Source: Glutinoglossum americanum (lineage: Eukaryota; Ascomycota; Geoglossomycetes; Geoglossales; Geoglossaceae). From it: a DNA stretch of 64,000 bases. Positions within the stretch are counted from its first letter, which is position 1; each line of letters starts with the position of its first letter. The notes beneath the pieces are model-generated. The model made no database searches, was not told the origin of the DNA, and saw only the letters and a list, made by a program, of their open reading frames with translations. The stretch lies in contig JAGHQL010000001.1 in NCBI GenBank assembly GCA_020080175.1, forward strand, positions 1 to 64,000, read 5' to 3'. Below are positions 26,360 to 48,244 of this stretch, piece after piece. The translations under genes were made by a program, and so were the position numbers.

Positions 26360-26783
26360 ACGCAACCATACTATATATAAAATAGGAGTGATATTTCAGC
26401 ACCGGCCCCCCCTTTTTTTTATAAAAAAAAAAGAATATTCTATGGACTGCTCTGTATATAATCATCCCACAACAATTTTATTTTATTAAGACCCCTTATG
26501 TTGGGTGTGCTCGCATACATACCTCGTACGACGAGCAAGGTATGGTCGATAAACACCCTCATTCGAAGAACATCAGATAAATGCAAACTTCTGTCTTTCT
26601 ATCCGTATTCTCTATGCTTCATCTATGTGTGCAGTGCACATGGTAAGGAACCACCACCTCTTCCCCCCTGCATAATCATGGTACCTATCTTTTTTTTTTT
26701 CATTGCTCTTCCTCGCAGAGAGAAAACGAAAACCGTAGTCCCTCTATCCCGTCTATGGTAGGCGCTTTTCTTGTACGAAATTT
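26360..26783. other. Convergent intergenic region
   Basis: A shared 3' region between ESF1 (+) and ARC1 (-), with an A run at about 26426-26434 and a T run at about 26691-26700. These probably include both polyadenylation regions. No gene is seen. Confidence 0.5.
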
Positions 26784-28277
26784 CTACCTCACCGCCGCTC
26801 CCGTCAAGCTCTTAACTACGCAAACCCCTCCATTCTTTGTAACCAGTCTCCCAACCCCCTTCACGCCCTCCGCTCCCGCTGCACTTCCCTCCCCACCCAG
26901 CTGTGGCACCCCTGCGCCATCAAACCCTACCTCCATGTCCCCTGTGGTCGTAAACCCCGGCTGCAATGTCTCCCAAATCTTCTTCTTAGGATTCAGCTGT
27001 CCCTCCGGCTCCCCTTCCCAGCCCTCGAAGAAAACCCTCTCCCCAGCTTTCGCGTCAGGTGGTGGAGTGACCAACTCCACAGGTCCTTTGTGGCCATCGT
27101 CGGCTTCACCTTCGACAGGTCTTGGGGACGCAGCGAGGACCATGGCTGAGGACTTGACGCCGCGCATAGTGACAGGTTTGAGGTTGCAGACCACTACGAC
27201 CTTGCGATTCTGCATCTCGGAGAGGGGGACAAGCCCGTTTAGGCCGGAGCAGACGGTTCGGACGGTTTCGCCTTCGTGTTCCGAGGTGCCTTCCTTGCCT
27301 GGAGGGTCGCCACAAGCGATCGTAGAGACGTAGAGGGAGTCGGCATTGGGGTGGTTAACAGCTTGGATGATGTGGCCGACTCGGAGGTCAATAAGGGATG
27401 GGGTGAGGACGGCCTCCTTCGCGGGGGCTTTTGGCGGTCTTGGAGCTTTCTCTTTCTTCTCCTTTTTAGGGGCGGTTGGCTTGGCGGAAGCCGCTGCATC
27501 CTTGACGGCTTCTTTGGTTTCAGGTACTTTTTCCTTTGCCTTGCCCTTTTTGCTCTTCTCCCCTTCGACGACTTTCTCGCCCTCGGCTTCCGCAGTCGCA
27601 GCTGCCCTCTCCCTCTTCCGCCTGTCCTTCTCTTCTTTAGGATCCACAGGCTTTTTCACAAAGATAACGTTATCCACATCCACCAACACCTTCTCATCCT
27701 CAGTCAACTTGAGCCCAAAAACCGGTGAGTTCTGCACAAAGTCGATAAAGCGGACTGTGTGGTGGTATCCACTCTCCCCTGTCCTCTGCTCAGGCGTCCA
27801 CTTTGCGACAGTTGGAGCAAGGCGACTGTAGAGCGCTATGTCTGCAACTGAGGGCTTCGCTCCCAGAAGCGTCGATCTAGTCGAGAGGTGGGCATTTAAT
27901 GTCTCGAGGAGGTCAGCGACTTTGTTTGCGTCCCCAGAGGGCGAGGCAAGACGGGCGGATAGCGTTAGCCATTGCCCTATCTCTGCATGTTCGATATCGG
28001 AATAGGTCGCCCCTGGGAATATGTCTTGACACAGGTATGTGGAGATGGTATTGGTGCCGTGAATAGTCGGGCCGGGGGGCAAAGTGAGAGCGGACCGAGC
28101 GTTGGGGGTATCCGAAATTGTGGTAGAAGACGGGAATGCGGAGGGGAAGGAGCGGTAGAGGAGCACGAGGAGGGGCTCAGAGGGAGAGATCGAAAGCGAG
28201 GCTGCCATAGTGGGGAATGAGAGAAGAGCCTTTGGAGCTTGAGAGTTGAAGAAGAATCGCGAGACTAGGCAAGGCAC
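26784..28277 (-). CDS. ARC1: Arc1/AIMP1-like aminoacyl-tRNA synthetase cofactor
   Basis: Arc1 binds tRNA and tethers methionyl- and glutamyl-tRNA synthetases in the cytosol, raising their efficiency. The single exon encodes 497 residues from the first Met, or 474 from a second Met (MAASLSISPSEPL), which looks the better start because the preceding residues are not conserved-looking. Order: GST-C-like helical domain to about residue 190 (...GAKPSVADIALYSRL, typical of GST-C); Lys/Ala/Glu-rich linker at about 215-300 (KKEKKEKAPRPPK); and EMAPII/tRNA-binding OB-fold at about 315-497 with LIDLRVGHIIQAVNHPNADSL and CNLKPVTMRGVKSSAM. The family assignment is firm. It is the last housekeeping gene before the accessory compartment. 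Confidence 0.93.
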   Translation of the reverse strand: MPCLVSRFFFNSQAPKALLSFPTMAASLSISPSEPLLVLLYRSFPSAFPSSTTISDTPNARSALTLPPGPTIHGTNTISTYLCQDIFPGATYSDIEHAEIGQWLTLSARLASPSGDANKVADLLETLNAHLSTRSTLLGAKPSVADIALYSRLAPTVAKWTPEQRTGESGYHHTVRFIDFVQNSPVFGLKLTEDEKVLVDVDNVIFVKKPVDPKEEKDRRKRERAAATAEAEGEKVVEGEKSKKGKAKEKVPETKEAVKDAAASAKPTAPKKEKKEKAPRPPKAPAKEAVLTPSLIDLRVGHIIQAVNHPNADSLYVSTIACGDPPGKEGTSEHEGETVRTVCSGLNGLVPLSEMQNRKVVVVCNLKPVTMRGVKSSAMVLAASPRPVEGEADDGHKGPVELVTPPPDAKAGERVFFEGWEGEPEGQLNPKKKIWETLQPGFTTTGDMEVGFDGAGVPQLGGEGSAAGAEGVKGVGRLVTKNGGVCVVKSLTGAAVR

Positions 28278-28660
28278 AGCTGAACGCAGTAGCGGTGCCA
28301 GAGACAGTTTGGCATGGACCCTAGGAGGCCAAGTGCGTAATGGTCAAATTGGTGAACTTGGCGAACTGGTTGGAGTGATGTTGATCAAGAAAGAGTCAGG
28401 GATGTGGGGTGGGAAATAACGGGTCTTGGCGATATAGTACGACAGAAATCCGTAATTCCATCACTCGCACTCACCCAGCCAACGCCGCTTTAAAGGGTGA
28501 GCAGGGTGAGCCTGGGTGATGCTCATCCCGCGTCGGTGCCCCAAACATAGCCCAGCAAACTTCGCACTGAAAATGGACCCAGTCCCAGAAATAAAGGGTG
28601 TCGGGTACCCTTCTAGCCCGACTATCCTTCGACTCCAGCTTCTCCCAAGTCTATACTATC
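28278..28660. other. Candidate left-edge region with GGGTGA repeats
   Basis: This lies between ARC1 (starting leftward) and the recombinase relic (starting rightward). At 28460-28479 there is TCACTCGCACTCACCCAGCC. At about 28495-28523 three GGGTGA-type units occur, the last reading CCTGGGTGATG, so the two parts are partly inverted copies. If an element begins here, its left end should fall in this stretch. No target-site duplication can be judged without the right end. Confidence 0.35.
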
Positions 28661-31600
28661 ATGGGTCGGAAGGCACCTACGGCAGAAGAGCTACTGCGGG
28701 AAGATACAGCTAGAGGCTATCAAATCGGTATGCATAGAGAGAAGGACATTATAAAGGAAATACCTAAATATGCCAAGAAGACTCTCAAAGATCAAAATTG
28801 AGCTTTAAATCATTATGCAAAGTATGTGTCGCTCCAGTTGTGACATCTCAAAGAACTCTACTAACTTCTTGATATAGGTGGATTGAGGGTGTAGAGATGA
28901 AGAGGGAGGGGGAAGGAGAAGAGAGCAAGACGGAAAGAGTGGAAAAAAGAGTGGATGAGACCGCAGAGATGAAAAGTGCCAGGGTAGAATACTCCCTCCG
29001 GAAGGGAGTGCCTTGTCCGGACCTAGCTACCACCAAAGACTTCCTCCGCTTTCACATCGCCCTTAGTCAAGGAAGAATTAAGGACAAGACGACAGTTGAC
29101 TTGGTAAAGACTTTTGCGAAATGGTTCTTTGCGGGCTTCACTCAGGTTACTGAAACCGTTATCAGTGAGGATTACAGGAGTTCAATTTACGGTGTAAGAC
29201 TCCCCTAATATACCTATTAGGCTACTTGAATAACTAGGCTTTCTCTTAGTGGGTAAGAACTGTTCTAACAAAGGAATGCCTTATTGTGAACACAAAAAAG
29301 CTAAAATACTTGTTCAGTAAACATGACTTGATCCAGTTTCATACTATGTTTTGGATAAAGAATGATGCGAATTTCGTTTACCCACATAATAAGCTACAGA
29401 TTCCATTTATTATTGATATATTCTGCTGGACTGGAACAAGGATTGGTGCGTTCTTTCCGAATCCTGATAATAAGGATAAAGGAGGCCTCTACTATAAGGT
29501 AAATTGTTTCTTCCCTAGATTGAATAAGATTCTAATCCTTTCAGGATATCGAGGTTGTGTTGCTACGTATGTATGAGAGCTAGAAAGTTATTTACTGAAT
29601 AGATCAGCGTTGGGTTAAAAACAACAGTGACTTCAAAAATATTACATATCCCTCCTATACTCTCCTTCTACTGTGTCGCGCTGTCCATCTAATATAACCT
29701 AGATATGGCGCATTCACAAGCCAACACGCGAAATTGATATTCGATAATACTCAATATCTACTTGCCTTAGCTTTTGCTGACAAAGCTTTTTACAAGATAG
29801 ATTCACCCAAGAAATTCTGGTCGCTTCAAATTCCAGAAGGCGAAGAAGTACTTATTCTTTGATGGGAAGTCTCTATAAAGAATCTATCGATCTTTTGTAA
29901 TGCTACCTTACAGAAAGGGGTTTCTGAAGAACCATTACCCAAGGCCACATTCGAATGCATAGTTCGGTCTGTGATGCGAATGTCTGGATACTTTGGTTAT
30001 GCTACAGTTCATGCTATACGTCGTTACATAGGCAAGAAACTGAATGGTGTGTCTCAAGAGATGGCCTTCGATGAACAAATAATCATGCTGATGAACTATT
30101 TAAAAAGGTATACTGAAGCTAAACGTTCACAACACATTACCCAAAACGACTCCCGTGTGTACGGCCAAAGCTATATGGCAAATACTTCTTCCTGCGATGG
30201 AAGGTGGGCCTTTTTAGATGAATCAGCATAGTACGACCACGTCGAGTACTTTCAAGGCTTTGGCAGATTTCGTGAAAAAGGCCTCCCCCATACCCTTCCG
30301 GCTGAGAAAACAGTTGCCTTGAAAAATGATCCACAAATTATTGAACTTAAGGATAGAGTACGACAACTCGAAACAGAGGGCCAGTGCCGAAGACATCAGA
30401 AGTGCAAGAGACAAAGTTAGAAGCTGCTGTAACAGCCTAGAGAGAGCGACTCTACAGAAGTTCCAAAACTAGTGAGTTAAGGATCAAAGAGACTGGAAGA
30501 TCAGAGCACAGGGGAAAGGGCAAGCCGAAGACTTCATGCCTACCGAACTCACTCAAATACTCTTTAGGATGATACCTGAGCGTGGTCGCCTTACTAAGAT
30601 GATGGTTTCCAATATGGTCATTTCGGAACAAGAAAGGAAACAGGCTGTTACAGACTTCCATTCATTTATAACTAGAGATTATACAGTTTTGTATCGCCCC
30701 GGAGAAGAGCCAATTAATGGTACCTATCCTGTAGAGAGCTGTGGGAGAAAAATAGAAGGTAAGAAACTAATCTCTATCAATTTGAACTAGCTAACTAATG
30801 TTTATAGCTTATCTAAGGAATACAGAGCGGCCCACATATACCGTTGTATGCGAAAGGAGTGTACAAATGCTCTTTCCCGTTTGCAGCCTGACCTGGTCTA
30901 TTGCTTTCAGTGCTTTGCTTGGTTCGTCAAAGAAGAATGGGAGGCCCATTGCAGGCAGCATCTTGATTCAATTAGTTCAAGAGGGTGTGGGTCGATTACT
31001 TATTGCCATACCGTCATTTACCCTGCACACTGTCTATTTTGCTTAGGCAATAAAACCCTTTCTGCAGGTGCCAGGCTGCAGGAATGGACACGGGATGCTG
31101 ATTTGATGCCGCATCTTGAAAAGCACATTAGCGAAACCTGTTGGCTATCTGGTTGTCCACACCCTCTCTGCAATGTTCAGATACAGGATGAGACGTCATT
31201 TTGGTACCACCTAAGCGATGTCCATAATCTTCGCAGAGATAACATTAAAGGATGAAAGCGTGACATGAAAGCCATCACCTCGGAGGACAGTAACGATATT
31301 GTTCGAGCCACTGGAGACCTCTCACCAAGTCAAAAGGAAGTGGAAATCAACACAGCTAAAGGAAACTGTTGAGTCGAAGTCACTGATTACTCACCTCCCA
31401 AGCTGTCACCCACCCCTCCTAATGGAAGTCCTCGAAAACAGCTAGCTGTCTTTACGGATCCTGTTATATCTCCAATATTGGCATTGCTTTCTTCTGCCGC
31501 ACCGGATTTAACATACAGTCCTACTAGTCCCGGCAGTACAGTATCTTGTCTGGGCAGTGCAGTACCTTGTCCGGACAGTATAGTATCTTGTTCAATGGGA

Positions 31601-32077
31601 AATGATACCCTCGGGCGAGACGACTATCACGACATAAATAACTTTGATAAGGAAATACGATGGATCGAGCTAGGAGCTAATCCTAAGAAACTTGCAGACA
31701 TCACGGTAATTGATCTTACGGAGGATAAGCCTTTGACACCTGATGACTCGATATCCCGATACACGGCAATATCCTCAACTTGTCCCTCTATAAAGGAAGA
31801 CAGTGATGACAATAGCAGGAGCCTGTCTAACTCTGCCTACTGCAATCAGGTTGAACCTAGTGAAGATGTCCAAATCATAACCAAGAAACCCAGTATTAAG
31901 CTTTGGTTAAATCCACCTAAAAGTCCAAAGGATCCCAAACCTAAGATTTTTTTACGAGTAAAGCGACCAGACCAGGCCCCATCTCAGACGCGTCATCGCC
32001 ATATTGGAAAAAATGATAGACGAGTCAGAAATCCAGCCTCTACAACCAAGAAATCAAGACGGAAATGCTATGCATAA
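28661..32077 (+). pseudogene. Decayed DUF3435 ('FluG-domain') tyrosine recombinase
   Basis: DUF3435 proteins are tyrosine recombinases; the captains of Starship transposons belong to this family. The copy begins MGRKAPTAEELLRED. Catalytic-type blocks are visible: FCWTGTRIGAFFPNP (first Arg, ~29430), ATVHAIRRYIGKK (H-x-x-R, ~30005) and RVYGQSYMANTSS (likely nucleophile Tyr, ~30160). C2H2/C4-like fingers follow at about 30850-31230 (YRCMRKEC, VYCFQCFAWF, EAHCRQHLDS, CWLSGCPHPLC), then a tail with VIDLTEDKPL, a SUMO-interaction-like motif, and AT-hook-like KPKIFLRVKRP. Introns remain recognisable (e.g. GTATGT near 28813, GTAAAT near 29499). In-frame stops occur at about 28799, 29694, 29860 and 30229, plus a damaged stretch at 30400-30480. 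Several fit C-to-T or G-to-A change (CAG to TAG, TGG to TGA), as RIP makes. It is not functional. Confidence 0.82.
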
Positions 32078-33950
32078 AACTGATTTTCTATTTCTCTATA
32101 TACTCTTCACGCAATACTCTAATATATAGTACTTTGATCATTAGTTTCCTGCCACTTTCCATCTTTGTCTCTTGATTTCTATAAAAACTATCTATACAAT
32201 GTAGCTCGGATTTCAGTTTTCCCAAGATCTCATTTAGTTTTGATCGGCCATGCGAATGCCAGTTTCTATACTTCTTGCTATACTATTTATTTGATCTAAG
32301 ACACCATATTATTTACAACCTCCAAGCTTACCTAATCTAAACTCTACCCATTACGGAGAGCGGGTAACTCTGATTTCAACTTCTCAAGTAATAAGAAGGC
32401 TTCGTTCAATCCCCTACAAGACTGGATTGTAGATTTCCTAAAAAAATCTGCTGTTAACATCCAATTATTCATTTCATGCCACATTTGCTGAATGTCAGTC
32501 TGAGCTACCTGTAGTGCAGACTGTAGCTGATCAATATCCTCTTCTACATATCCCTTCAATTCTGACTCTTTAATTGTCTGGTCTGGTCATTGATTGAGTT
32601 TACTGGTTAACCTGCTGTTCTCTGCTTCCAACTATTGTATTTTTACCACGAAGTTAATATCTGACTGGGAAGAAAGAGTATTGTCTTATTTTACTTGTGT
32701 TATACGTTGTGCCGATGTGCCCACAGCTACTACTTCAAATAATGTATCAACATCACAGTATAGTTCCATGCATACACCGATCGAATACTTGCTTAGATGT
32801 TTGCTAAAGAGATGCTACTTTTCTAGCAAGAATGTCTAATTGCAAGAGTCATCAACACCCGCAATAAGACGTACTTGTGATAGCTCGATCGAGATCCCTA
32901 ACTTACTCTCTTTTATATTTCTATCAGCAACTCATACTTGTTAATAATAGTATATGTACCTTACTAATATGCTCTGATAACTGTTATCGACATTGAGCTC
33001 TCCACTTGACATGCTCTAGATTTGCTATTCAAGGTGAAGTCATTTAGAGAGCCATAGAAAAGGAAAAGTATCTTCAGTGCTCTGATTTATTTTAGACTTC
33101 TATTCAGCTTAGAACATATAACTCATTATTCTGATCTCAAGTGATGGGTCCATAAATGACTCCTAGCAACTACCCTCTTAAGAGTATTCTTACTCCCAAA
33201 ATAGCGTGTTTGAAATATAAATGCCCTAGGTGTGGGATACTAAAACAGGCTTCTAGTTATCTTGGCTCAAAAAAGACATGATCGCATTACTAATTACTTT
33301 CCTGTCTACTGCACTTCCAATCAACTAATTTTAGAGAAATCCAGCTTAAAATACATTAGGGGTCTTTGAGAACTTCTACCAAGTAGGTCTTTCTAAAACA
33401 GCTCCTTTAAGAAAAGCTCCTTCAAAAATAGAGGTTACTGAGGGGACTAGAATGAGCTCTCTTCAGATGCTACTTGTTTAGATATTTTTATCTCTGTAAA
33501 TTCCATTTTTGCTCTGAGCAAAGCGATTTTAGGAACTCTAAAGAAATCACTCTTATCACCTCTACTACATATATCTTCTGACTGAATTTAATAAACCTGT
33601 AACTTATGTACTTCCAAAGGTATCTTATTTGTTGTATACAACTCTTTTTCACTCCTGATCAACATTCTATTACTATAACTATTGCTATGCTGAATGGAAA
33701 AATATGAGTAAAATTGGTTAGTTCAGTTACTTTTTTGGTTGCTGCTATCTGCTGTATTGTCTTAGAACTTCAAGTACTATACCAGGAAAATAGTATAAAG
33801 GCAGACATTATAATCATAAGTATGAAAACTTACTCTTCTAGTTTGTTTTGACCTCCTTTTGACTAACTGATTCTGACTCATAGTTTAACTTCACCAATTT
33901 ACATCTGCCAAAAAATTCTTTCACTATGCCATGCAATATCCTGAGTGGTA
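32078..33950. other. AT-rich, RIP-like non-coding stretch
   Basis: Visibly richer in A/T and TpA than the left half, with stops in all frames. A short minus-strand frame at 32344-32559 reads as a coiled-coil-like helix (QLQSALQVAQTDIQQMWHEM) and may be a fragment of a former gene; I do not recognise it. The remainder contains nothing I can name. Confidence 0.45.
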
Positions 33951-33966
33951 ACATTCCTGCATCTCT

Positions 33967-34645
33967 TCAGAGTAGAACCTAGAGCGCTGCAAACATTACT
34001 GCTACTGCTATTCCTAGTGCTGTCAGGCAGGTACACAGTGCCATAAACGTTACTACTATAGTTATTCCTAGTGCTATTAGTAGGGTAAAGAGTGTCACAA
34101 GTGCTGTTACTACAGCTATTCCAAACATCGATGCGATTAAAGAATTAATTTCTAAAAATGTCTTACTAGATACAAAATAGTTCTGTATCAGGTTCAGTAA
34201 TCATACAGAATGCAAGAACCTACCAATGAAAATTTCCGGTATTATTCTGGAAGCTGTTGCAAGAATCATTGGTGACCAAGTTAGGGAGCTTCATCTAGAG
34301 CAGATCTTCGCACAAGTCACTTCTACAAATATTCAGTATGGTCTGATTTTGAGCCTAGTATTAGTAGTAATTATAACTTTCATATTTGCCTATTCAATGT
34401 TTAGCAGACTATTCTATTTTGGAAAAGTTCTAATAAGAGTGGCAATTTGTTTAATATCTGGATTCTTATATATTATTTTCTTTCTCATCTCTACTATTAT
34501 TTTACATATTGTGCTATTGAAGTCTAACCATCTGCTGCCGTCCAGTATTGAGATTTGGAAAGGTGAGATGAGCAGGTATTGCTTGAAAACTGTCTGCTGT
34601 GCTATTATTATGATGTTGGCAGCTGTTTTGCTGGCCTTTGTTTAA
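33967..34645 (+). pseudogene. Membrane-protein gene with one internal stop
   Basis: Continuous plus-strand frame interrupted by a single TAG at about 34181. Upstream of the stop: repeated units of the type TAIPSAVRQVHSAINVTT, VIPSAISRVKSV and TAIPNIDAIKEL, i.e. an Ala/Ile/Pro/Ser repeat of about 20 residues. Downstream: FCIRFSNHTECKNLP, with two Cys and a possible glycosylation site, then a 139-residue part with three or four hydrophobic helices (YGLILSLVLVVIITFIFAYS, ISGFLYIIFFLISTIILHIV, TVCCAIIMMLAAVLLAFV). This predicts an extracellular or luminal repeat stem followed by membrane segments. The N-terminus is not defined. The stop sits in an AT-rich region and may be a RIP product. Family unknown. 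Confidence 0.45.
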
Positions 34646-34649
34646 GGTA

Positions 34650-35047
34650 TATATGTAGATAATAGTAGCAGGCTACTGGCTAACGGAACAGCTTTACAAG
34701 AGCAACCAGTCTCTAGTGGCTCTCTACTAATGTCCCTCCCTATATAGCGAGAAAGCCATCATACCAAGAAATATGAGGGGTACTTTAACTTCAAGCAGCT
34801 CAAAATCTGTACATACGTTGATATTTAACATAATTTAATATAAGTTATGTGCTGTAGCTTCTCCTAAATATTTTGGACCCTGCCTACCTAAAAATTACAT
34901 TTGCATCGTTGCCTTTCAGCCTATTTTACAGAGAGTTCTGTTTTGTGATGTAACAAAGTTCCTTCACTACAGCACCACTATTAAGCTCTGGCCACTTATA
35001 ATACTCATAAAAGGGTCTTATCCAAGCCTCAGAGTCTCACTATGATG
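34650..35047. other. AT-rich spacer, nothing recognised
   Basis: Unique-looking AT-rich DNA between the membrane-protein relic and the left inverted-repeat arm. No frame or repeat is supported. Confidence 0.4.
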
Positions 35048-35374
35048 CTGGGATATTATCATCAGCCTTGTGTCTGCTGTGGCGCACAAATTCATGCTAC
35101 GCATTGGTACCTCTAATCGAAGGGATCACTAGTCTAGGCTAGTGCAGAATAACCCCGCCTCACATATCAATCATCATGGTGTAATTTACCTAGAGTGGCT
35201 GTTGAGCCTGTGGCTGTGCGGAGTCTTGGCAAGCGGCCGACCTTAGCCCCACAGCCTTGCGATTCAACCTTGGTTCATGCCTCCGGTCAACCAACTCAAT
35301 TCTCTAAGAACACCTACAGAATTCGCCACCTCACAAGGGTATGGCCGGAGCGGGTCGGCCGCCCTCCCTGCTGG
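35048..35374 (-). repeat. Left arm of ~330-bp inverted repeat (SINE-like)
   Basis: The sequence from CTGGGATATTATCATCAGCC to GGCCGCCCTCCCTGCT is matched, inverted and at roughly 85-90% identity by eye, by 53319-53646. The GC-rich end (GCCGGAGCGGGTCGGCCGCC) is also found alone at 44053-44090 and 48245-48312. At 48 kb that module adjoins a tRNA A-box-like sequence, so the unit may be a tRNA-derived SINE. The alternative is a terminal repeat of an 18.6-kb element. Confidence 0.75.
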
Positions 35375-36428
35375 CGGAGGCGGAGGGCAGGTAGCCTCCG
35401 GGCTAATTGGTCTTCAGGAAATACCACTAATGCTTGTGCCTACTTGGAGCGGAACAGCGTCGGGGAAGCGCATCTCGTCTGAGCGTATTTCCGCGAATAG
35501 AAAGACCATGACAGTGCAACTCAGCCATGCCTGCATTGTCAGCCCCGCTGAGCTGGGGTTGGACGGCAATTCTTTCTACAGGACGAAAGCAGATCTGAGG
35601 CTCCGCAGGCCGCGAGTGTGCTGCAGCAATATCATCGCCAAACTTGGCTGCATGTGTCACCGCTCGCTACGCCACCCGCGGCCTCCCAAGTACAGAACGT
35701 AAGAAGTGGCTCAGCATCACCAAAAACCAACATTTCTCTATCAACACCTTCGCTTCTTCTACTTCTCTATCTCCATAACGGTATGGCCCTTCTTGTGGTG
35801 GTGGCATCCGGTGCTAAAACCAATTCGATGATCGTTAAATATCACTCGTAGGCATGATTACGCAGCTTTCCCCGTTCTGTATTTGTATAGGTTTAAAATT
35901 CATTATTTATCATTAAGCACCATGTTCTACGCTTGCTATAGCTATACAAAACCCTCCCGGCATACTGGGCGACTAAAAAAAGAAGGTCCATAATAGTAGT
36001 AAGAAAGTATAGGGAGGCCACTAAGCGGTTCGCGGTAGTAAAGTTACCTCGTCCCAAAAAGTCTGTTCCACTCAGAATAGCTACATAGATCGTACTTAAA
36101 AACCCTGCTTGGAGGTAAAATATCGATAGATTTAAGTGAGAGCTTCTAGATGATAAATCAACCCTGTTATGAACCCTTCTACTAATGAACTCCTCTCATT
36201 TAAAAAATAAAAATTGGGCCTTTCGACGGAGTGGTGGGTTTTCTGGGTACGGTCTAAACAGTCTCTCGGACTGGAAATGCCGGGCTTCTGTAGTAGCAGG
36301 CTCACTGCCGTGATTGCTTGTTCGTGGTTCTTAGGGGCTATTCTTCCCAGACCACGCATTTATGGACCAAGGAGGTTCATCCTTCACCAGAATTGGATGT
36401 GAAGACCTTCCGGAACCATCGTTGGCCG
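35375..36428. other. Intergenic, no gene recognised
   Basis: Some GC-rich sequence with short overlapping frames on both strands at 35380-35850, then AT-rich sequence. None of the frames resembles a known protein. It is the 3' flank of the receptor gene ending at 36429. Confidence 0.4.
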
Positions 36429-39400
36429 TCAGATCCAAGTGGCTCTGGGGCCGGATCCAAAAGGTACCCGTGGGTGCCGGTCCGATAGTTGAGGCTGTAG
36501 TGCGTGTAAGCTAGGTGGCTCGGGAGACATCGACACATCCTGGTTTCTTCGAATGACATCTCGACCGTTATGTACTCGAATCTCAGCTTGACTGTGGACG
36601 TATTCATTGTGTGGATCACCTTCGAGAGACACACAGATAGGTTCGGACCTCAACTGTTTCGGATTGCTGCAAGAGATTTCTCGGTGCTGATCTTGGTGAG
36701 GCTGCGGTTGGCTTTTGCTGAATATGTTCGCAAGAAGGCCTGTTGCGCCAAAAATTACTACGCCATCATCGTGTCCGGAAGAAGCATCTATCTCGCCTGG
36801 TCTCCTGGACTTATTAATCAGGCTAGGCTTTTCCAGCTCCTGTATACGCTTGCATTCACATGGGTTGACCTGGTATTGGTTGGCTTGGCTAGTTTTGTTG
36901 CAGCGTTCAAAAACATGAGTTGAGCGCTGCCACATAAATCCCGTAGGAGTAAGTCTCGCCTGGTCCTCCCGGGAGCCCTCGCTCATGTGCAACGCGCGTA
37001 GTACTGAAATATCCATAGCTAGGTAGCCTCTCCCACGCGGAAGCGTCTGGAAGCTACGGCATAATTGATCTGGCTCTTTAGGTTCAAAAATGTCATGGAA
37101 TCCAGAACCAAATAGAACCACTGCTCCAATATCGCGTGCAAAATATGGCCACTTGCCAAATGTAGCTTCCACCTTCGTCGATTTAAGATGTAGCTGACGT
37201 TTTCGCTCAACCAAATCCATGTACTCCCATCCCAAAATCGAGCTCCTTGGATCCCAGCTCAGTTTGATCCTGGGCTTAGTCCTGACCGTGGCTTCCTCGT
37301 ACTGCAGCTTCTCAAGCGTTCTGAGCAGCTCTTCGAACATTTCCCTAAATCGCCAGACTGTCTCTTCATCCCTGCCAGCTTTCCAGTCACGATATAGTGC
37401 TGTATTTGCATTTTTCCACGTAGCATCGCGCACCGAAACGCCCGCATTTTCATCTGCCGGCTCAATATAGACGGGCCGTTTGTCGATCTCGAAGCTACCA
37501 CGGTAGCAACGGTGCAAGATCACATGAAGGATAAGCCTCTCAGCATTAGTGTGCCATGCACGCTTGTCTTTCGTGTCTTGTAAAATTACGTGCAACCCAC
37601 TAGCGTCCTCCAGCGTGGTCTTGTAGGAGTTGGACTTTTCGGTGTTATATACTCCTTGTCTGTTTCTATAATCAAAGTTAGCTGTTCCCGTTCCGATTTT
37701 ACTGAAACCGAGGCCTAGCCCTTTGAACGCGAGTTCGTGTGTAGACTCCTTAGAGGTGTCCGAATAACCTACGCCACTATAGTCGTAGCGTACATTGCTG
37801 GTGCCTGTAGAGTGTAAGCAATCTGAAATAGCATAGTCCTGCGCAGTGGCGAAGATTCAACATACCGAGCCTATTGGTGGCATTAGAGCACCATCCCAAG
37901 AAAGCCTTTGTCGATTGAAGAGCAACTTCGTCCAAGTCTTTGAAAAGGAGACGTTTGTTAAGGCCATCAACCTCATCAAATCCAATTCTCTCGGGATACC
38001 GGTCAATAAGATGCCACTGCACTTCATCCTCACTTCTCTCTACCGGAACAAATATGTGGGATCGTCCTTTCAAGATGTAGCCACCTTCGTGTTCCATGGC
38101 TAGTGATATCCCAACCAGGCCGGCCAAGGTCTCTAAGGGGGCTTGCAAACCGACGCAATAGCGGCGTTGTGCAATAGGGAATCCTCGGACGACTACGCTG
38201 TTATCGACAATCTTATTCCAACAGGCCTCATTGCCCTTGACTGGCTCAACGTGTATCCCAATGTGGAATTGAGGCGGAACTGAAGAAGTGCATCCAAATT
38301 CAAGGTAACCGCAAGCAAGTCCCCCGACAGAAACTCGACATGCTGCTGACAACCACGATAGTTGTTGAGCTACGACAGCTACGAAGTCTCCTGAACCCGT
38401 CACTACGAATTCGCGTTTCCCAAGGTCTACGTTGATGGAATTTCCTAGAGGCGATATGTCGTTATCTGATGTTTATTAGATTGGTCATTTATGGGAATGC
38501 CGAACGCACCAATTGATGAGTTCTGTACGGGAGTAGTACTGCCACCGCTGCTATAACCCCCGCTGGAGACCTCTGGGTGCGTTATGCGACGAACGCTCGC
38601 TTGGATAGCCTCTAGAAGATTTAGGGGATATGAAGGCCAGGTTTGCCTCAGATACGTGAGCACGGCAACCTGTTGTGCGTTGATAGGTTCTCCGGTGATT
38701 GTTAAGACTCTGCCCAAATCTTGCTGGAGGCCGAGTTCGTACTCGCTGCTCAAAAAGTCCACAAGGTCCCAATCTGTTATAAAAGAAACTCGGTGACTAC
38801 TGGAAGAACGTTGTAGACTTCGAAAGACGCGTTGCCCAATAATGCTCATTTGGTCATTGCAATATCTACCTAGCAGCCTTTCCATATTTTTGATGAGATC
38901 CAAAAATGCAGCATGATTGACAAGGAAGCCCTGAATGTCTTTGTACTCCAAAGGCAATGTTTCAGAGCTATCACTGCTAGCAGATGAGATAGCATCAGCT
39001 CCGGATGTGTTCTCAGGTAAGTCTTCGGAAATTTGCCTCTGAGTAATAGGCTCAATTTGAGGTTGGGGGCCATGCGGCAGATGGGCTCCGTTATCTAGTA
39101 AGGGACTTGCTGCCAGGTCGAAATCCCAGTCGTAGAACTTTTCGGCGGGCGTCTTTTGCTGTCTGCCAAGTGCGTCTGCTCGTTCAGCGAGACCAGGAGA
39201 GGCTAGCATGTCTGGGTCACCCCAAAATTTCTCAACACAACGTTTCGATATATCCTGACGAAACTGACGGATTGACTTTGACACCGCCCGAATTCTCTTG
39301 GTGGAGGCATCTTGTTTGACGGAATTTGAAAATTCTTTAAACATAGTTGAGAATTTTTCCAATAATATCCCATCAAACTCCCGGCCACCCGTGGCATTTA

Positions 39401-42400
39401 ACAAATTCTTTGGCAGTCGCTTACGAATCGCTTCACTGAACTCAGTCACAATTGTATCCCTTTGTCCAGGAGTCCAATTCGTGGAAGAGGGCGAGGCGGT
39501 TGATGCTCCGTCATTTGACGGAGGAGTTTCATCAGTCACACGTTGTTCTAGTTCAACCTGAGGCTGTAAAATCTCTTTGTTTGATAGCGGTTTCGGGACG
39601 CTGGCTGGTATGTGGATCCCCGATGAACTTGGGACTGTCGAATATGGTTTTTTCGAAGAACCCGTAAAAATTGATAGTATGTCTGAAGAGGATTCAACCG
39701 TTGGAGGAGCTCGCAGGGGAGTACAGTCTTCAGTAGAATCCGCAGCGTACTGTTGGTATGAAGCAGCGTGGGGAGTGTTGCCGTCCTCTCCGACCTGGGC
39801 ATTGGTACTGACACCCAGGTCGAGCAGCAGCTTGACCATCGCCTCGTGCCTGTTCCTTTTCGCATACCATAGCGGCGTCCGCCCGTCCTCATCCTTTGAG
39901 TCGGCGTCAACCTTGCCTGTCGTGAGCAACAGCTTAGCCACAGTCTCATGTCCATTCCCGGCCGCCCATGAGAGCGGTGTCTGACCGTGGTCGTCCCTTG
40001 AGTCGGGGTCCACCTTGCTGGAACTGAGCAGCTGCTTGACTACAGCCTCATGTCCATTCTCGGCCGCCCGTGAGAGCGGCGTCTGGCCGTGGTCGTCTCT
40101 TGAGTCGGGGTCCGCCTTGCTGGAATCGAGCAGCTGCTTGACTACAGCCTCATGTCCATTCTCGGCCGCCCGTGTGAGTGGCGTCTGACCGTGGTCGTCC
40201 CTTGAGTCGGGGTCCACCTTGCTGGAACCGAGCAGCTGCTTGACTACAGCCTCATGTCCATTCTCGGCCGCCCGTGAGAGCGGCGTCTGGCCGTGGTCGT
40301 CTCTTGAGTCGGGGTTCACCTTGCTGGAACCGAGCAGCTGCTTGACTACAACCTCATGCCCATTCTCGGCCGCCCGCCACAGCGGTGTCTGACCGAACTT
40401 GTCCTTTGAACTGACGTCCACCTTGCCGGAATCGAGTAGCTGCTTGACTACGGCCCCATGCCCACTCTTCGCCGCCCATGAGAGCGGCGTCCGGCCGTCC
40501 TCGCCTGCTGCATCCGCGTCTACCACACCCTCTTGGAATAGCCTGAGCAGCAGGCCGTACATAGCTGGCTCTTGATCTGAAGTGCACAAGATGTGCTGCA
40601 GCCAATATAATTTTGCATAAGAGAAAAAGTGAAATTCATCCACCGAACGAGAATTGAAAAGCTTGCTAGTTTCCGCAAGAGTTGGACCAATGTCATAGTT
40701 AGTCTGTTTCCTGGACTTTAAGAGCTTCAATGTGAGATTTCGAACGCTACTTGACGATTCTAGTGTTGAACGAACGATCCTGGACGGTGCCAATTCGGCC
40801 CTTATTTGTGGAACTACCATATTAGATAGTTGTGTTCCAAAGATGCCGTAACCAAGGTAGGTGATGATAATGTCTGCCATCCTCCTCCTTGCTTCATCAA
40901 TTTTAAATGGTATATTATTTGAATCTTTAAACCCACTAAGGAGGAATTGCCTAATGCTGTGATGTGCGAGTCGTACAGTCAACGTCTCTTCATCGACAAC
41001 TAGGAGGCTTCCGCAGCAAGTCAATATCGAGAACACGTCATTAAAATGCTCCTTCGGTTCCCAGATAGTGTCGCCAGGAACTACACTCAAGGCTTCTCGA
41101 AGTTCTTCTATCGTTAACGGACGGTAAGCCACAGTGACGAGTTCTAATATTCGTCTCTGATAAGGCTTTCCCAATGCTTCCGATCTCAGTAGAATACGCG
41201 TAAATGTTTCCGAAAGATCCTTAGGAAGATCTGCCAAAGCTCGGAAAATGGCGCCATCTGTTTCCATGAATCCCAAAGACTTAATTTGAAGAGCCACCCA
41301 AAGAAACATTCCTTGTGACCCCTTCAGAAGAGTATCCTGTATTTTCAGAATAAGCCCGGGATCTTTTATCACTATCTCTCCAGACTCTATGCAGCTTGCT
41401 AACTCTGTCTCAATAAATGCCTCAATATCAGGATTTTCTTCAGGAATCGAGGCAATTCCAGTGGCAATGAACCTTTCTGATCTTAATATTAAGGCATTCC
41501 TGATTGAAACACAAAGAGCTAATGTAAACGTCTCTTGGAGCTTCCGGAGTTGTCGAATCAATATTTTTCTCTCGGCATAGTCGCATCCATCTAGTCCATC
41601 CAGAATGAAGTATGCTTTGCAGTCAGGTGGAAGAGCATGTTGGAGCAAAGTGGATATACCTTCGAAATCTGGGGCTGAAGTAGTCTTATCGAAGATTTCC
41701 GCCGCCACCGCAAGGTCTGGAATTGGGTGCAGTAATTGTCGAGCCAGAGAACCAATGATCGTCCGCGCCCTCAAGCTTTCGGGAATGTCTTGTCGGCAAA
41801 AAAAGTAAGCCACCATATGACTCTTGCTTTGAACATGTAGATTCATGTCATCGACGATATTAGCCAGTAAAACGGATTTCCCAGATCCTAGCTTGCCGGT
41901 ATATATAAGTGTACAGGAATCTGCTCGGCTTTTCCAGTTCTGATATTCAACATTTCCATTGAACAGAGTTGTGTTCCCGACCTTTCGAGTTTGCTTCCAC
42001 GTAGTCTCATAATCATATGTAGAGCAAAGACCGAGGACTCGTAGATTCATCTTCATCTTTCGCTGAAGTGATACGGATTCGAATCGCTTGCTGGAAAGAG
42101 CCTTGAAACTAAAGTTCTCCTGAGCTTCTTCATCAATCTTCCTGGCCATCAGCAGGTTCGCCTCTTCTTTGATCGTATTCGCCCAGCGATCAAGCTCTGA
42201 TTGGTAGGACTTTATATCGGAGTCACTTAAAGTAGATGCGAATTGCCCAATGGCAGACCTCTTCGTGAACCTCAACACTAGGTGGCAAAGATGAACCACC
42301 ACAATGAAGTATTCAGATAAATATGATTGTATATTCTTCGATTGACAATAGAGCGAGGCCATCACTTGGTAACGGGGCGCGGAACAGCCGACGGTCATCA

Positions 42401-42843
42401 GAAGAGTCGACAACTTGTCGAGGTAGGAAGAGAAGTTTACAATAGACTACAAAGGTATTAGTAGGGGAACACAGCCAAGAAGGTTGGGGGATACCAACGA
42501 GTAACGACATCCGCACCAGCGACCAGACGCCGCACGCAATTATGTTCTGGGAGCCGCCTACGATGACGTCCCCAAGCGCAGCGAATTGCTGGACAGCCTG
42601 AAGGAAATTGGTGAAGCGAGGTCCAAAACACCGCCGGCCGCCGACTCCGGAAGCCCGGCGGTCAATCTCAGCCGTGAGTCGCATGACATCGCTAGGACCT
42701 GGAGGGGAATCGCGCGATTGGGATCTGTAGGCACGGAAGGCAACTTTCTGGTCACTCGAGAGGTCTGCTTCAAACTGCGAAACTGCCTGCGCGAGGCGGA
42801 TTTCGGGCTTCAGCCGTGAAGTATCTGCCCGTAGAGTAGACAT
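36429..42843 (-). CDS. NLR-type receptor: N-terminal domain, NACHT, ankyrin repeats, conserved C-terminal domain
   Basis: Fungal NLR-like STAND proteins sense ligands through repeats and signal through a nucleotide switch, often in non-self recognition and cell death. Four exons: 42843-42499, 42446-38510, 38444-37866 and 37804-36429 (introns GTTGGT..TTGTAG, GTGCGT..CTCTAG, GTATGT..CTACAG). Their sum is 6237 nt, exactly 2079 codons. Order: an N-terminal domain common in such fungal proteins (FGPRFTNFLQAVQQFAALGD...IACGVWSLVRMSLL, resembling DUF7708); NACHT with Walker A GKLGSGKS and Walker B YFILDGLD; seven to eight ankyrin repeats of the [20 protein letters not shown] type; a Ser/Thr-rich linker with KFYDWDFDLAASPLLD; and a C-terminal domain with VAQQLSWLSAACRVS and GGYILKGRSHIFVPVERSED...VQWHLID. 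The last two exons alone lack a start codon, which supports fusion. No break is seen. Confidence 0.85.
39790..40530 (-). repeat. Ankyrin-encoding tandem repeats of the first receptor
   Basis: About seven units of 102 nt (34 codons) coding for [20 protein letters not shown] and relatives. The inner four or five units differ by only a few bases, the outer ones more. High unit-to-unit identity is the pattern described for fungal NLR repeat domains under rapid turnover. Confidence 0.85.
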
Positions 42844-43754
42844 GGGGGGTGACGCCCTGAAAGATTCCGAATAACAGAGCTCACCAAGCTGTATGCGAGA
42901 GCTTCCCTAGGAGAATACAGAGAGGATGGGAACACAGGTGAGGTTGATCGTGAGGGGCACTGTTGCCTAGGGCTACTCAACGCCGCCAATTGATTCACGC
43001 ACCAATCAGAAAGAGGGACAGCAAATGTCGTCGGGACGAAGTCCCTAAAGCATCCCCAAGCATTCCACAGAGTAACTTATACCTAGCCTCCGAACTTGAC
43101 CACCTGCTATTAACCCAGATCCGCGGGTTAGATCCTCGCAGGGAAAATCGGCACCACCGGCACCTTTGTCAAGACATACCCGAACCACAATGTGGCGAAA
43201 CCCAAGCCCTGGAGTACCAATACCGTCCAGTATGTGCCGCTATTTGACACTTAACTTGGCTCAGTAAAGGTGGATTTCAAGAGATCTAATTTTGAGGTGG
43301 GGTAAGAGAAGCCCATCCTGCAAGCGACTGTACTGCAAAACCCAAACCAGGGATCGCAGACAGAGGAACAGCGGCAGGCCCTAACGAGGCGTAAACTTCG
43401 TGCATGCAGTGGCACAATGTAAATAGAACTCAAGGATAGACCTTAGTAGTTGTAACCTGCATATCCCCCGGGAGAGGTCAGGGTAAATGAATTGAAGAAG
43501 AAGACTGTACTGCAAGCAAACACCACTCCAGAGACTTGTCGGGCTGTCACCAGTTTCCTCTGACTACTGTTCCAGAGCCGGATCCTTATATATTCCAAGT
43601 ATCTGCAGGAGAGGGAAGGCTTCACATAGCCATAGATCCGTCGGCCACTCTAAGCAAATTACGCTGAGATGATCACTTGTAGAGCTGAATACCGCCCAAA
43701 AGTATTGTGAGTAGTGAGGTGGTTTTTGGGCTCGCAGCTTAGCTAGCATTCTTG
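42844..43754. other. Upstream region of the first receptor
   Basis: Contains the receptor's promoter side. Short frames at 42963-43247 and 43443-43625 have no recognisable content. Nothing else is seen. Confidence 0.4.
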
Positions 43755-43947
43755 GCGCGAGGGGCCTACCTAGCTCACTGCCGCTTGCTCTTCTCTTCAT
43801 CATGCATGCTTGTACGTAGGCTAGAGTAGGCACGTCGGCATCATCGGCATCCTACCTACCAACTCAGATCTTTCCTCCACACCTACGTACAAGCATGCAT
43901 GATCTAGAGAAGAACGAGCGGCAGCGAGCTAGGGTAGCTACTTGCGC
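43755..43947. repeat. Fold-back (palindromic) MITE-like element
   Basis: Left arm 43755-43820 and right arm 43882-43947 are inverted copies over about 66 bp with roughly ten mismatches (inner ends CATGCATGCTTGTACGTAGG / CCTACGTACAAGCATGCATG). They enclose a 61-nt loop. This can fold into a long hairpin. Size and shape fit a fold-back MITE. The target duplication is unclear. Confidence 0.75.
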
Positions 43948-44052
43948 GGAGACCGCCTCCACGGCGGGGCAGGCAGTTCAAGGTGACTGAGCTCCATTGA
44001 TCTATGGCTAAGCGTGCGAATGATCATGTAGCACTTGATATCGCCATCACTA

Positions 44053-44090
44053 GCAGGGAGGGCGGCCGACCCGCACCGGCCATGGGGTTG
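44053..44090 (+). repeat. SINE-like GC core, short copy
   Basis: Carries CTAGCAGGGAGGGCGGCC followed by GACCCGCACCGGCCA, the same module as in the 35-kb and 53-kb inverted repeats, in the 53-kb orientation. It contains a GGCCG..CGGCC stem. An ACAT microsatellite follows at 44138-44155. Confidence 0.65.
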
Positions 44091-44447
44091 TTGCGATGGG
44101 GAATTACCCTCAGGGTGCACAGCCATAATAGAATCTACATACATACATACATACGTTGCGATGGGGAAGAGGCGAGGAAAATGTAGAATGGGTGATGTTG
44201 ATACACTGACTGATTATCGTGGGCAGTAGTGGTTTTCGGGGAACCCAACAAAAGCCACTTCGGAGGCGGAACCACTGAAGGCCCTACAGCCAAGAAACAA
44301 CTCTCAACTGCTGTATGGAACCTTGCTGCCAAATGGTTGGATATAATAGTAGATCAGTAAGCGTGAGTCGGCGCTAAAGAGTCTATTCCAATGCTGAGAT
44401 ATCTAACGCGATGATTTACGAACTGCAATCTAAAACTTGTAATTGTA

Positions 44448-44521
44448 ATTGCTCATGCGAAGGCCGAGGAAGCGGAGGTTCGTGAGGCGAGGCATGCCAT
44501 AAGCGTGGCAGCGCAACCACA
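44448..44521 (+). repeat. ~75-bp MITE-like repeat, copy 1
   Basis: The unit beginning GCTCATGCGAAGGCCGAGGA and ending GGCAGCGCAACCACA matches 53652-53726 at over 80%. Ends carry a short inverted GTTGC/GCAAC. A TAATT on both sides could be the target duplication. Confidence 0.6.
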
Positions 44522-44559
44522 TAATTTTATTTTAACGATGTACTTCTTGTTAATGTATG

Positions 44560-45855
44560 CTAGTAGTCCGGGTCATCATCCTCCATACGCTTGGTTGCTC
44601 TCTGCTCTTGCTCAACATACTTCGCTTCATCATCAGAAGCCATCCTCTCTGGGGGAGTTTCTGATCTTTTGCGCTTTTTGACCCCAGGGGGAATAGAATT
44701 TTTGACAAGCATTCCCCACCTTCGAACCTTGTCCTCTGCATCAGTAAGATATTGACAAAGCTGCTGCGTGGACAAGAGTATCTCTTGATCTCCATCTCTA
44801 ACCACATCCTCTGTAAGCCCTTCACAAGCAAAGTCAGACAGTTGAAGTCGTAGACCCGGATGATCCGTAGGGTTTCCTTGATCGTCACGGAATGCCTATG
44901 AAGAAATGTCAGAAATCAAAGACGAAATAATATTGTCTTAGGACGAGACATACCTCGTCAGCAATTTCTCGAACTACTCTCAATTCATCTCCATCATCAG
45001 TATGGAACATATGAGTCCGCCATACCGACAATGTCGCTTCCTGCGACCTTTTCCTGCCGTATTCAATATCTAAGCCGACAACAACTCGCACACTAGCATC
45101 CGAGTCTAAAAGATATTCTTCGGCTAGCCGGTCCAACCTCTTCCTCTTCTGTGAATATGAAACTTCAATTATAACACCAGGATATTTTGCATCGGCATGC
45201 AAGAAAGAGGCGTCTGGCTCATGTTTTGACTCTGTGGTAGGTGAAGCGTCATCGACGGGAAAGTGAAAGATGGTAGAACGGGCTGCGCGCACCTTCTGTG
45301 CGAATAGAGCTGCTTTATCTGATCCGCCGCGAATCGTTTTTAGTTCACTTCGTATTGCGTCCTCAACACTATCAATGAGGAGCTCATGTACACTAGTCGG
45401 CATGCGGACAACTAGTCTATGTCTTCTTGCATCATAATCATATCTGCGCGGTTGCCATCATTAGCTTGCACTCTACAGTTCCTTGAGCCCACATACCGTA
45501 TCTTGTCCTTAACGAATCCCCATAGACACTCGTCTTGCTCAAGCCGACGCTCTATCTCATCGTACTCTCCTCTTGTAAGCTGAAATTCTGTCCACGGGTG
45601 TTGCCCAACGTGTCTTCCAGCTTCGATAAGTTTGAAGAGCGTGAGGACTCGAGGAGCTTGCGTGAAGGCTTTCTTGTCGGTTGGCGGAGGTGTCAAAGGC
45701 GCGTCTACAAAACTCGAAGGCGGCGTGATATGCTGATGTTCTTTTAGAGGGGTCTGCGACATAGACATAGCCGTATGTTGGGCTGCATTGCGAAGTTGCT
45801 CGATTGATGTCGCGAGAAGAGTTGCACGCTTTAGTTGACTCGGCAACAGCGCCAC
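44560..45855 (-). CDS. Accessory fungal protein with PD-(D/E)XK (Uma2-like) nuclease-type motif
   Basis: Exons 45855-45497, 45443-44954 and 44895-44560 (introns 53 and 58 nt, GTATGT..GCGCAG and GTATGT..TTCATAG) give 394 residues. The first splice creates KDKIRYDYDARRHRLVVRMP. In the second exon, HEPDASFLHADAKYPGVIIEVSYSQKRKR has the spacing D...(E)V of PD-(D/E)XK nuclease folds (quoted parts HEPDASF and GVIIEVSYSQKRKR), preceded by VHELLIDSVEDAIRSELK. The third exon holds GLRLQLSDFACEGL and a basic nuclear-signal-like PPGVKKRKRSETPP. Proteins of this kind are common and multicopy in filamentous ascomycetes; activity is, as far as I know, not established. The nuclease fold is inference. A truncated duplicate lies at 47.85-48.1 kb. 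No break is seen. Confidence 0.72.
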
Positions 45856-45929
45856 ACTAGACCAACTTGGCTAGTGGGTCCGGCAGTGCTTAACCGCCAC
45901 AACTCCCGCCCAACATATTGCTGGTTCCA

Positions 45930-47316
45930 ATACTAAAAACAGTTGCCTATTTCCTCTAAAATTTTAGTCCTAGTTATTACCCTAAAGTATTGGAAAGCAT
46001 TGGTAAGAAAGTTGTCATCTTAGTAGTGTCATCGAACATACTGGAATAGCTGCGTCAACTATAAAAACGCATATCCTTACTGTGAAATGCATTGCAGCAT
46101 ATTAGTAGAATAAATATGCCCAACATTATTCGAAGACCTCGTCAGTGTCGCCCGCTACGTTCATTAGAGCGGAGCCGAGACCAGACCCGTCAACTAGGAA
46201 CTAAACCAACGTACAAAAAGCGCTGTCGTATCTTCACACTCTCTGATATCTTACACTGGTCCTTAGAAGCAATCGCCACAATTATGAGACTTCCTCGAAC
46301 AACTGTTCAGTCTGTATTAAGATCCAGAGTGGAGGCTCCGAAGAAGCAAATAGGCAGAAAGCCTGCTATTACATGCAGGATTCGAGAATGCCTTGTTGCT
46401 CGTGCGACCCTTGACGCTGATCATCGTCGAATGACATACAAGGAAATCGCCCGGCTGGAAGGTGTGGAGGCTGGTCGGAAAGCCCTCGTGACAGCATTCA
46501 AGATAGAGTCATATAGCCGTCGCGTGGCCACCTCGAAACCTCTTCTTACCGAAGCACAAAAGCAGGTACGTTTAGCATGGGCAATCAAGCACTTGAGCTG
46601 GAAACCAGAGCAGTGGGCTCAGGTCGTCTGGACTGACGAGTGTTCCTTCTCGACCGAAGGATTTGGAAAGGTATATGTCACCAGGCGACCAGAAGAGAAG
46701 TATAACGATTCTTGCTGTGCTCCTAAGTTTAGAACTTATTCTTCTTGGACCATTCATGGAAGCATTTCGACGTTTGGCAAAGGAGACATGGTGGTCATTG
46801 AGAAGGAATGGGGCAGAGTAACAGGTAACGTACATAGAGAAAGGGTGCTTCCTTGTGTATACCAATTTATGAACTGGGTGGCACAACACCCTGAGAATCG
46901 TTCGAGGCACGCCGTCCTTATGGAAGATGGTGCTTCTCAACATACTGCTAAGTTCACGACGCAGCTCCATAATCTAAATGGAATAGACAAGATGTGCTGG
47001 CCCGCTAATTCCCCTGACCTGAACCCAATAGAGAATATCTGGCGTCTATTAAAACAGAGAGTGACTAAAAGACTCCCATGTACCCTTATAGAGTTAAGGC
47101 TATGTATAGAGGAAGAGTGGGCAGCATTGCAACTCTCTGATTTGGCGAGATATATTGGGAATATGAATGAACGTTGTCAAGCTGTGGTAGATGCTAAAGG
47201 AGGGCATACGAAATGGTGAATTTGTAAATTGGACTTGAAAGCAATACTGATAATATTTTCTAGAAAGGAGATCTAAGACATACTTCCAACTAGATTTTTA
47301 GTTTTCCAAGCCATCT
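45930..47316 (+). mobile_element. Tc1/mariner-type DNA transposon
   Basis: Built around the transposase at 46092-47219. Candidate terminal repeats are imperfect: ACTAAAAACAGTTGCC at about 45934-45949 and the inverted ACTAAAAATCTAGTTGG at about 47297-47313. A TA precedes the left one; the right flank is not a clean TA. The ends are therefore approximate. Confidence 0.55.
46092..47219 (+). CDS. Tc1/mariner transposase (DD34E)
   Basis: Catalyses cut-and-paste transposition at TA sites. The uninterrupted frame has 375 residues; a second Met eight codons in (MPNIIRRPRQC) is an equally good start. An N-terminal helix-turn-helix part (LEAIATIMRLPRTTVQSVL, about residues 56-75) is followed by the catalytic triad: VVWTDECSFS (first Asp), VLMEDGASQH (second Asp) and NSPDLNPIENIW (Glu). 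There are 34 residues between the second Asp and the Glu, the Tc1 spacing. No stop or frameshift, so it may be recently active, which contrasts with the decayed recombinase at 28.7 kb. Confidence 0.88.
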   Translation: MQHISRINMPNIIRRPRQCRPLRSLERSRDQTRQLGTKPTYKKRCRIFTLSDILHWSLEAIATIMRLPRTTVQSVLRSRVEAPKKQIGRKPAITCRIRECLVARATLDADHRRMTYKEIARLEGVEAGRKALVTAFKIESYSRRVATSKPLLTEAQKQVRLAWAIKHLSWKPEQWAQVVWTDECSFSTEGFGKVYVTRRPEEKYNDSCCAPKFRTYSSWTIHGSISTFGKGDMVVIEKEWGRVTGNVHRERVLPCVYQFMNWVAQHPENRSRHAVLMEDGASQHTAKFTTQLHNLNGIDKMCWPANSPDLNPIENIWRLLKQRVTKRLPCTLIELRLCIEEEWAALQLSDLARYIGNMNERCQAVVDAKGGHTKW

Positions 47317-47541
47317 CGTTGTATGCACTTTGACCCCGCTCTCCACTCCGAAGTGCTCCATGGCTAGTCTGCTCACTTTCCTGCTGTCGATATCACCACT
47401 AGGGCTACTCTGAATCAGTCTGCTTTGACTGCACGCCACTTGGGTTCGATCAACCTGGGCCCAGGGATGTGCGGTGCAAGTGTGTGGCTATCTGCCGGAA
47501 TGCAGCCTCTTTATCCTTTACTAGTGAGATTGTGATGATGC

Positions 47542-47757
47542 TCATACCATTGTTCGTGCACACACAAATGTCTTCATAGCGAGGATAGCTGATTGTGAAG
47601 GGTTGAGGCAACAGCTATTTGGCTCCACCATGAGTATTGTGAAAGGGAATATATGACATCGTTTCTCATATGTAATATGTGTGCCAGGATCGCAAAATAG
47701 GCAACGTTGAGGTGCAGGATGCGGCCTAGGACACGGCCTGCAGATAATATCTGGCAT
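47542..47757 (-). mobile_element. Tc1/mariner N-terminal fragment
   Basis: The minus-strand frame begins MPDIICRPCPRPHPAPQRC and continues ITYEKRCHIFPFTIL. This aligns with MPNIIRRPRQCRPLRSLER and PTYKKRCRIFTLSDIL of the transposase at 46 kb. Only the first ~45 residues are preserved; the remainder is missing or diverged. It is a second, older and inverted copy. Confidence 0.65.
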
Positions 47758-47854
47758 ATTGAAAATGTGCTTGCAAGCCTGCGAAAAATCGAACAGGATT
47801 CTAATAGTGCAGGGCTTAAGATCAGCTATATTTAGCGTAAATTTGTGTCTGCCA

Positions 47855-48110
47855 TACCGATTAAGCTGAAATTCTGTCCACCATGTTGCTTAACGTGTCT
47901 TCCAGCTTCGATATCTTTGAAAAGCGCGACAGCTTGGGAAGCTTGCTTGGGTGAAGGCTTTTCTTGTCGGTTAGCAGAGGCACCAAAGGCATATAATATG
48001 CTGATGTTCCTTCAGGGGGGTCTGCAATATAGATAGCCACATATCATGCAGCCAGTTAGTCCAAATCGCGAAGTTGAATGTTGATCGTCGCTAGGACCGG
48101 TTCGGGATGT
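47855..48110 (-). pseudogene. Truncated duplicate of the PD-(D/E)XK-like gene
   Basis: Minus-strand sequence matches the first exon of 44560-45855 at nucleotide level: blocks for PLKEHQH, PTDKKAFTQA, LFK..IEAGRHV and WTEFQL are recognisable. Small indels destroy the frame. The 5' flank (CATTGCGAAGTTG region) also matches for about 60 bp. The remaining two exons are absent here. It was probably duplicated and then eroded. Confidence 0.65.
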
Positions 48111-48244
48111 GGCTCGCGGATGTGGGCTTGTGGATGCGGCAGTGCTTCTTCGCCACAACATAACGACCAAGAAGTTTGTTGTTCCAAAGCCAACCATAGT
48201 TGCCAATTTTCTCTCCTTTCTCCATTCTTCAAACTCAAAAAGTA

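Follow-up and report, generated by a model that had tools for sequence, protein, structure and literature searches.

Immediately beside the ARC1 gene of Glutinoglossum americanum, the remains of a Starship-captain-type recombinase gene were found at the edge of a compartment whose base composition differs from that of the conserved side. The sequence analysed (hereafter the window) comprised positions 1-64,000 of the forward strand of contig JAGHQL010000001.1 (assembly GCA_020080175.1), and the stretch 28661-32077 on its plus strand is almost certainly a pseudogene of the DUF3435 tyrosine-recombinase family, a relic that is ordinary in kind. Recombinases of this family cut and rejoin DNA at short target sites and move the element that carries them. 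The most probable history is that a captain-type recombinase gene came to lie beside ARC1, by recombination as we infer, and then died there through stop codons and frame changes; the dead gene now edges a compartment of differing composition and gene content. Broken captains mark possible entry points of giant transposons, and thereby provide borders at which the arrival of gene clusters from outside can be tested. A captain-type relic alone is no proof of a Starship; its location at the edge of a compositionally distinct compartment makes an empty-site comparison worthwhile.

The family assignment was obtained with a read-through of 533 amino acids, in which the open pieces were joined, three intron-like segments (28822-28877, 29194-29249 and 29499-29544) were taken out and each stop was written as X. 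This read-through matched PF11917 with E = 1.4e-23 and 83.9 bits (cut-off 25.8), colinearly over profile positions 3-311 of 418, which bears out the DUF3435 tyrosine recombinase relic proposed in a preliminary description of this DNA. When eight open pieces were scanned singly, all remained under the PF11917 cut-off; two matched this profile weakly and in the correct order (E = 0.006 at profile positions 145-218 and E = 0.032 at 264-312), and two others gave sub-threshold chance matches to NMT_C and DUF6387. The recombinase part of the pseudogene, containing the three intron-like segments and several in-frame stops, occupied 28661-30417 (+). The gene structure, with introns few and short, would suggest an ascomycete. 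Its first ATG is at 28661 and the bases 28350-28660 read as non-coding, so that of the extent originally given for the relic (28350-32077) the end was retained and the start was not.

The catalytic Arg block (CWTGTRIGAFF, Arg codon 29439-29441) was recognised by eye in the translation of the piece 29250-29498 (+), and the HxxR block (HAIRR at 30010-30021, with His at 30010 and Arg at 30019) was seen in the piece 29863-30228 (+), which matched PF11917 on its own with E = 0.006 and also holds the Tyr candidates (30160 and 30172, by eye). A structure model of the catalytic part, made from the single sequence, was too poor (pLDDT 39.3) to pick the nucleophile Tyr. A frame-broken continuation at 30476-31252 (+) translates into a putative finger part, with three C2H2-like Cys/His spacings visible by eye within 30791-31252, for which Pfam scans gave nothing above cut-off; the Arg, H-x-x-R and Tyr blocks named earlier can be followed by eye, and the finger domain named with them is reduced to a C2H2-like pattern. 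It is followed by an open C-terminal tail (31373-32077, +), Pro/Ser-rich and then basic, which has no stops in 234 codons, against 11 and 25 in the 233 codons of the two other frames, and which only its position and strand tie to this gene.

With the DUF3435 (PF11917) recombinases, which include captains as well as solo genes, the relic shares the profile and, by eye, a C2H2-like C-terminal extension, and it differs from them in being a pseudogene. Cryptons are also fungal tyrosine-recombinase elements. They have been compared with DUF3435 in PMC12134995, and the relic is set apart from them in that Pfam listed DUF3435 alone for the read-through at E values up to 10. No second copy of the relic was seen within the 64-kb window, and searches found no relatives in viral_contigs (with one open piece and with the read-through), genome_contigs or, by tblastn, plasmids, which are prokaryote, phage, plasmid and viral collections where fungal DNA is not expected. 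A PDB search with the relic likewise found no relative, the best matches having the look of chance (delta crystallin, E = 0.5), and four relic pieces gave weak PHROGs matches of unknown function.

The claim that the recombinase is decayed was upheld by eight stop codons along the frame that was traced (28799, 29581, 29596, 29695, 29860, 30229, 30418 and 30430) and by frame shifts after 30418 and around 30760-30810, beyond which stops were met again at 31253 and 31370 (by eye). The stop at 29695 may lie inside a further intron-like segment, in which case the true lesion count would be one lower. As the catalytic blocks are now divided by stops and frame changes, the Arg block being on one open piece and the HxxR and Tyr blocks on another, a full protein and self-driven movement are not expected, and this copy should not yield a full recombinase unless further introns exist (the search for additional introns was limited to patterns and inspection by eye). 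A functional gene whose remaining introns had been overlooked would agree with the good fit of the three introns and with a tail open over 234 codons, but is very improbable in view of the eight in-frame stops, several of them within the profile-matching stretch, and of the frame changes. RIP was considered as the cause of decay and was not clearly indicated, the RIP index CRI being -0.35 to 0.02 over 29-35 kb; CpG loss was found instead, in the AT-rich block described below.

On the conserved flank, the ARC1 ORF (26784-28343, minus strand) matched PF01588 tRNA_bind (2.3e-21) and PF21972 Arc1p_N_like (3.2e-14), with a probable start codon at about 28208 (by eye). The relic is the first feature after ARC1 and the two are divergently oriented, so that it reads away from the conserved gene as had been described. 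Ten of the 15 ORFs of at least 180 amino acids left of 28.4 kb were scanned, and Pfam matches above cut-off were obtained for six of these 10, including ESF1 and ARC1; two GMC oxidoreductase pieces were also among the matches above cut-off. Any left end of an element carrying the relic is required to lie in the intergenic stretch between ARC1 and the relic (28209-28660), and the principal compositional change point of the window, at 28620, falls within it.

This change point was obtained by segmentation on two-base composition with gene positions unused. Position 28620, 41 bp from the ATG of the relic, came out as the best place for a single division of the 64 kb, with a log-likelihood ratio of 198.9; the 30 control shuffles of 200-bp blocks reached 65.9 at most. 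Change points at 35061 (ratio 216.1, control 58.6) and 32064 (91.2, control 52.7) each fell 14 bp from an edge of the AT-rich block, and the three positions correspond to the relic and the block behind it. Those at 40534 (62.1, control 38.9) and 39456 (52.2, control 34.5) lay at the ankyrin array of the first NLR gene, and segmentation of the left 28.6 kb gave no change point above control (77.2 against 93.8).

A border confined to the 6.4-kb unit of relic and AT-rich block was considered and dropped. With 28661-35047 removed, the best change point was at about 40535 (ratio 114.8; control maxima 82.3 and 58.4) and the junction scored 107.0, and when the ankyrin arrays were removed as well, the best point lay 0.64 kb to the right of the junction (123.9, with 120.0 at the junction and a control maximum of 61.3). 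A contrary result was given by one sub-test, in which 1-28660 and 35048-40535 were joined alone and the junction (53.5) stayed below the control maximum (61.9). Since the change point remains near the junction without the 6.4 kb and the ankyrin arrays, the compartment at 35-64 kb is itself unlike the left side, and the border, which the preliminary description had placed at the relic as one between core and accessory sequence, is real, with the change at or near the junction. The compositional difference does not reveal its cause, as a gene-poor region bearing receptor genes and transposons would also give it.

Directly behind the relic lies the AT-rich, CpG-poor block (32078-35047), with a GC content of 0.357 and a CpG observed/expected ratio of 0.33, compared with 0.94 in the left 28.2 kb. 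Its CpG loss is strong and comes without a clear RIP-like signature, and a six-frame Pfam scan of the block returned one sub-threshold coiled-coil match only, on the minus strand. The block may be a separate insertion.

To the right of the relic, 30 of the 122 ORFs of at least 70 amino acids beyond 32 kb were scanned, and Pfam matches above cut-off were found in five of these 30. The Pfam matches identified a first NACHT-ankyrin NLR gene (38448-42446), a Tc1-type DDE_3 transposase (46086-47216) and a second NLR gene with PNP_UDP_1, NPHP3_N/NACHT and ankyrin pieces (48777-52562). Six-frame Pfam scans of 32078-35047, 42907-46086, 53050-57699 and 60900-64000 gave nothing further above cut-off, and in 35048-36431, 47217-48776 and 57700-60900 the scans took in some of the ORFs only. 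No housekeeping families were seen in the 30 of 122 ORFs scanned, and for these the earlier statement that the compartment to the right of the relic lacks housekeeping genes holds.

The relic is very probably the remnant of a mobile element. An old resident DUF3435 gene, inherited vertically and having lost its function in this strain, could have kept intron-like segments of the kind observed, but the composition of the relic is sharply unlike that of its conserved neighbours, and such an origin is improbable. Starship cargo exceeds 15 kb, and its notable genes include DUF3723, FRE, PLP and NLR genes. The mobile-element remnant could be a captain at the 5' head of a derelict Starship, with the NLR-rich DNA to the right, past 64 kb, as its cargo, a reading that we hold tentatively, at rather less than an even chance. 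A Starship has its captain at the 5' end and is flanked by short direct repeats (PMC12153272), and the present relic stands first after a conserved gene and reads toward two NACHT-ankyrin NLR genes and a Tc1-type transposase, in a region (35-64 kb) with a composition unlike the left side and a change near the junction. NLRs are implied as notable cargo in PMC12134995, PMC11623301 describes derelict Starships in which the captain is pseudogenised, and for Verticillium PMC12289983 reports 211 captain-like genes in 56 genomes that had been assigned to no Starship (127 lay in the plastic regions) and that its authors suspect of marking unrecognised Starships; PMC11905480 also bears on the Starship question. 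As in the derelict Starships of PMC11623301, a broken captain-type gene here edges a distinct NLR compartment; the relic differs from that account in having no boundary repeats found in the window and no demonstrated shared cargo. The right-hand NLR genes are compatible with a Starship and not diagnostic of one, and a gene-poor region with NLR genes and transposons would stand out in composition even if it were not a single element. Also against a Starship head, no DUF3723, patatin-like or ferric-reductase domain was found in the 30 of 122 ORFs or in the partial six-frame scans of the right side.

Position and orientation make a weak argument, since DUF3435 genes are more often solo than captains, and in trees the captains lie scattered among them instead of forming one clade (PMC12134995); as captains are not monophyletic, a captain phylogeny would not decide Starship status. 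DUF3435 relics and solo genes are both described as common (PMC12134995, PMC11623301). The remnant may equally be that of a cargo-free insertion of about 3.4-6.4 kb, consisting of a solo recombinase or of a captain alone, which later decayed beside a compartment that was there independently; this, too, falls somewhat short of an even probability. It is favoured by the greater frequency of solo genes, by the segmentation, which sets the relic and the AT-rich block apart as units, and by the correspondence of elements below 15 kb to captain-gene indels in PMC12153272.

Repeats at the ends of an element bear on both readings. In curated A. fumigatus Starships, direct repeats of 2-12 bp were present in 19 of 20 and inverted repeats in 18 of 20 (PMC12153272). 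In the window, an exact direct repeat of 4-12 bp accompanied by 10 or more inverted matches out of 16 was sought, with the left end placed in 28210-28660 and the right end in 31000-63984, and no pair rose above background, the best score being 17 and all 13 same-size control regions scoring 17-20. This result counts against a Starship head, and it qualifies the earlier naming of the relic as a Starship captain, for which the position beside ARC1 and the orientation fit and an element end above background was not found within the window. As Starships range from about 20 to 700 kb (PMC12153272), the window may stop short of the 3' end, and the negative searches leave room for a right end beyond 64 kb. 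The target motif TTACN7A was absent from 26647-29095, the intergenic stretch included, and occurred in the 64-kb window 100 times, against 98.7 expected.

For an insertion of the gene alone, a candidate 9-bp direct repeat, ATATAGTAC, was found at 28432-28440 (+) and at 32124-32132 (+), the right copy starting 46 bases behind the stop codon of the tail; these are its only two plus-strand occurrences in the window, and they bracket just the relic gene. The repeat may be due to chance, since a 9-mer is shared with the intergenic stretch by 12% of 287 windows of 101 bp in the AT-rich block and by 18% of 2885 such windows in 35-64 kb, and at this level of chance sharing it is a lead only. For the larger, 6.4-kb unit, with edges at 28.6 and 35.05 kb, no repeats of at least 8 bases were common to 28209-28665 and 34950-35150, which speaks against its insertion as a unit. 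A convincing target-site repeat was not found within the window for any unit considered. An RNA gene (tRNA, 5S rRNA or other) was rejected as the site of insertion, as 0 tRNAs and 0 Rfam families at gathering score were found. The more specific proposal that a derelict Starship extends from 28.6 kb past the 64-kb limit and brought the NACHT-ankyrin cluster to ARC1, with the CpG-poor, non-RIP-like decay hinting at a lineage outside the usual Starship hosts, is unlikely and is offered as speculation.

Several repeats were observed within the right-hand compartment. Two inverted copies of a repeat of about 325 bp, with 88.6% identity (35048-35372 and 53320-53647), enclose 18 kb with both NLR genes, and the left copy ends where the AT-rich block ends. 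They were set aside as element ends, being located 3' of the two NLR genes and having partial copies at 44 and 48 kb. A GC-rich motif of 32 nt, with 0-1 mismatches, was present at 35342-35373 (-), 44051-44082 (+), 48261-48292 (-) and 53319-53350 (+), all four sites lying to the right of the border; no other site in the window matched with up to 3 mismatches, and none was seen in 100 shuffles. Similarity between the copies of the motif starts at a CTAG/CTGG edge, and a 24-base part of it had no exact match in viral_contigs or genome_contigs. A Helitron-like reading of the motif was rejected, since its hairpins fold no better than those of shuffles (z -0.2 to 0.71). Within the ankyrin array of the second NLR gene, 52563-52662 consists of 100 N, probably an assembly gap, which leaves the length of the array uncertain. 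Either side of the Tc1-type transposase there is a repeated gene fragment (45576-45765 and 47862-48033), and the apparent start of a second decayed transposase was seen by eye at 47545-47889.
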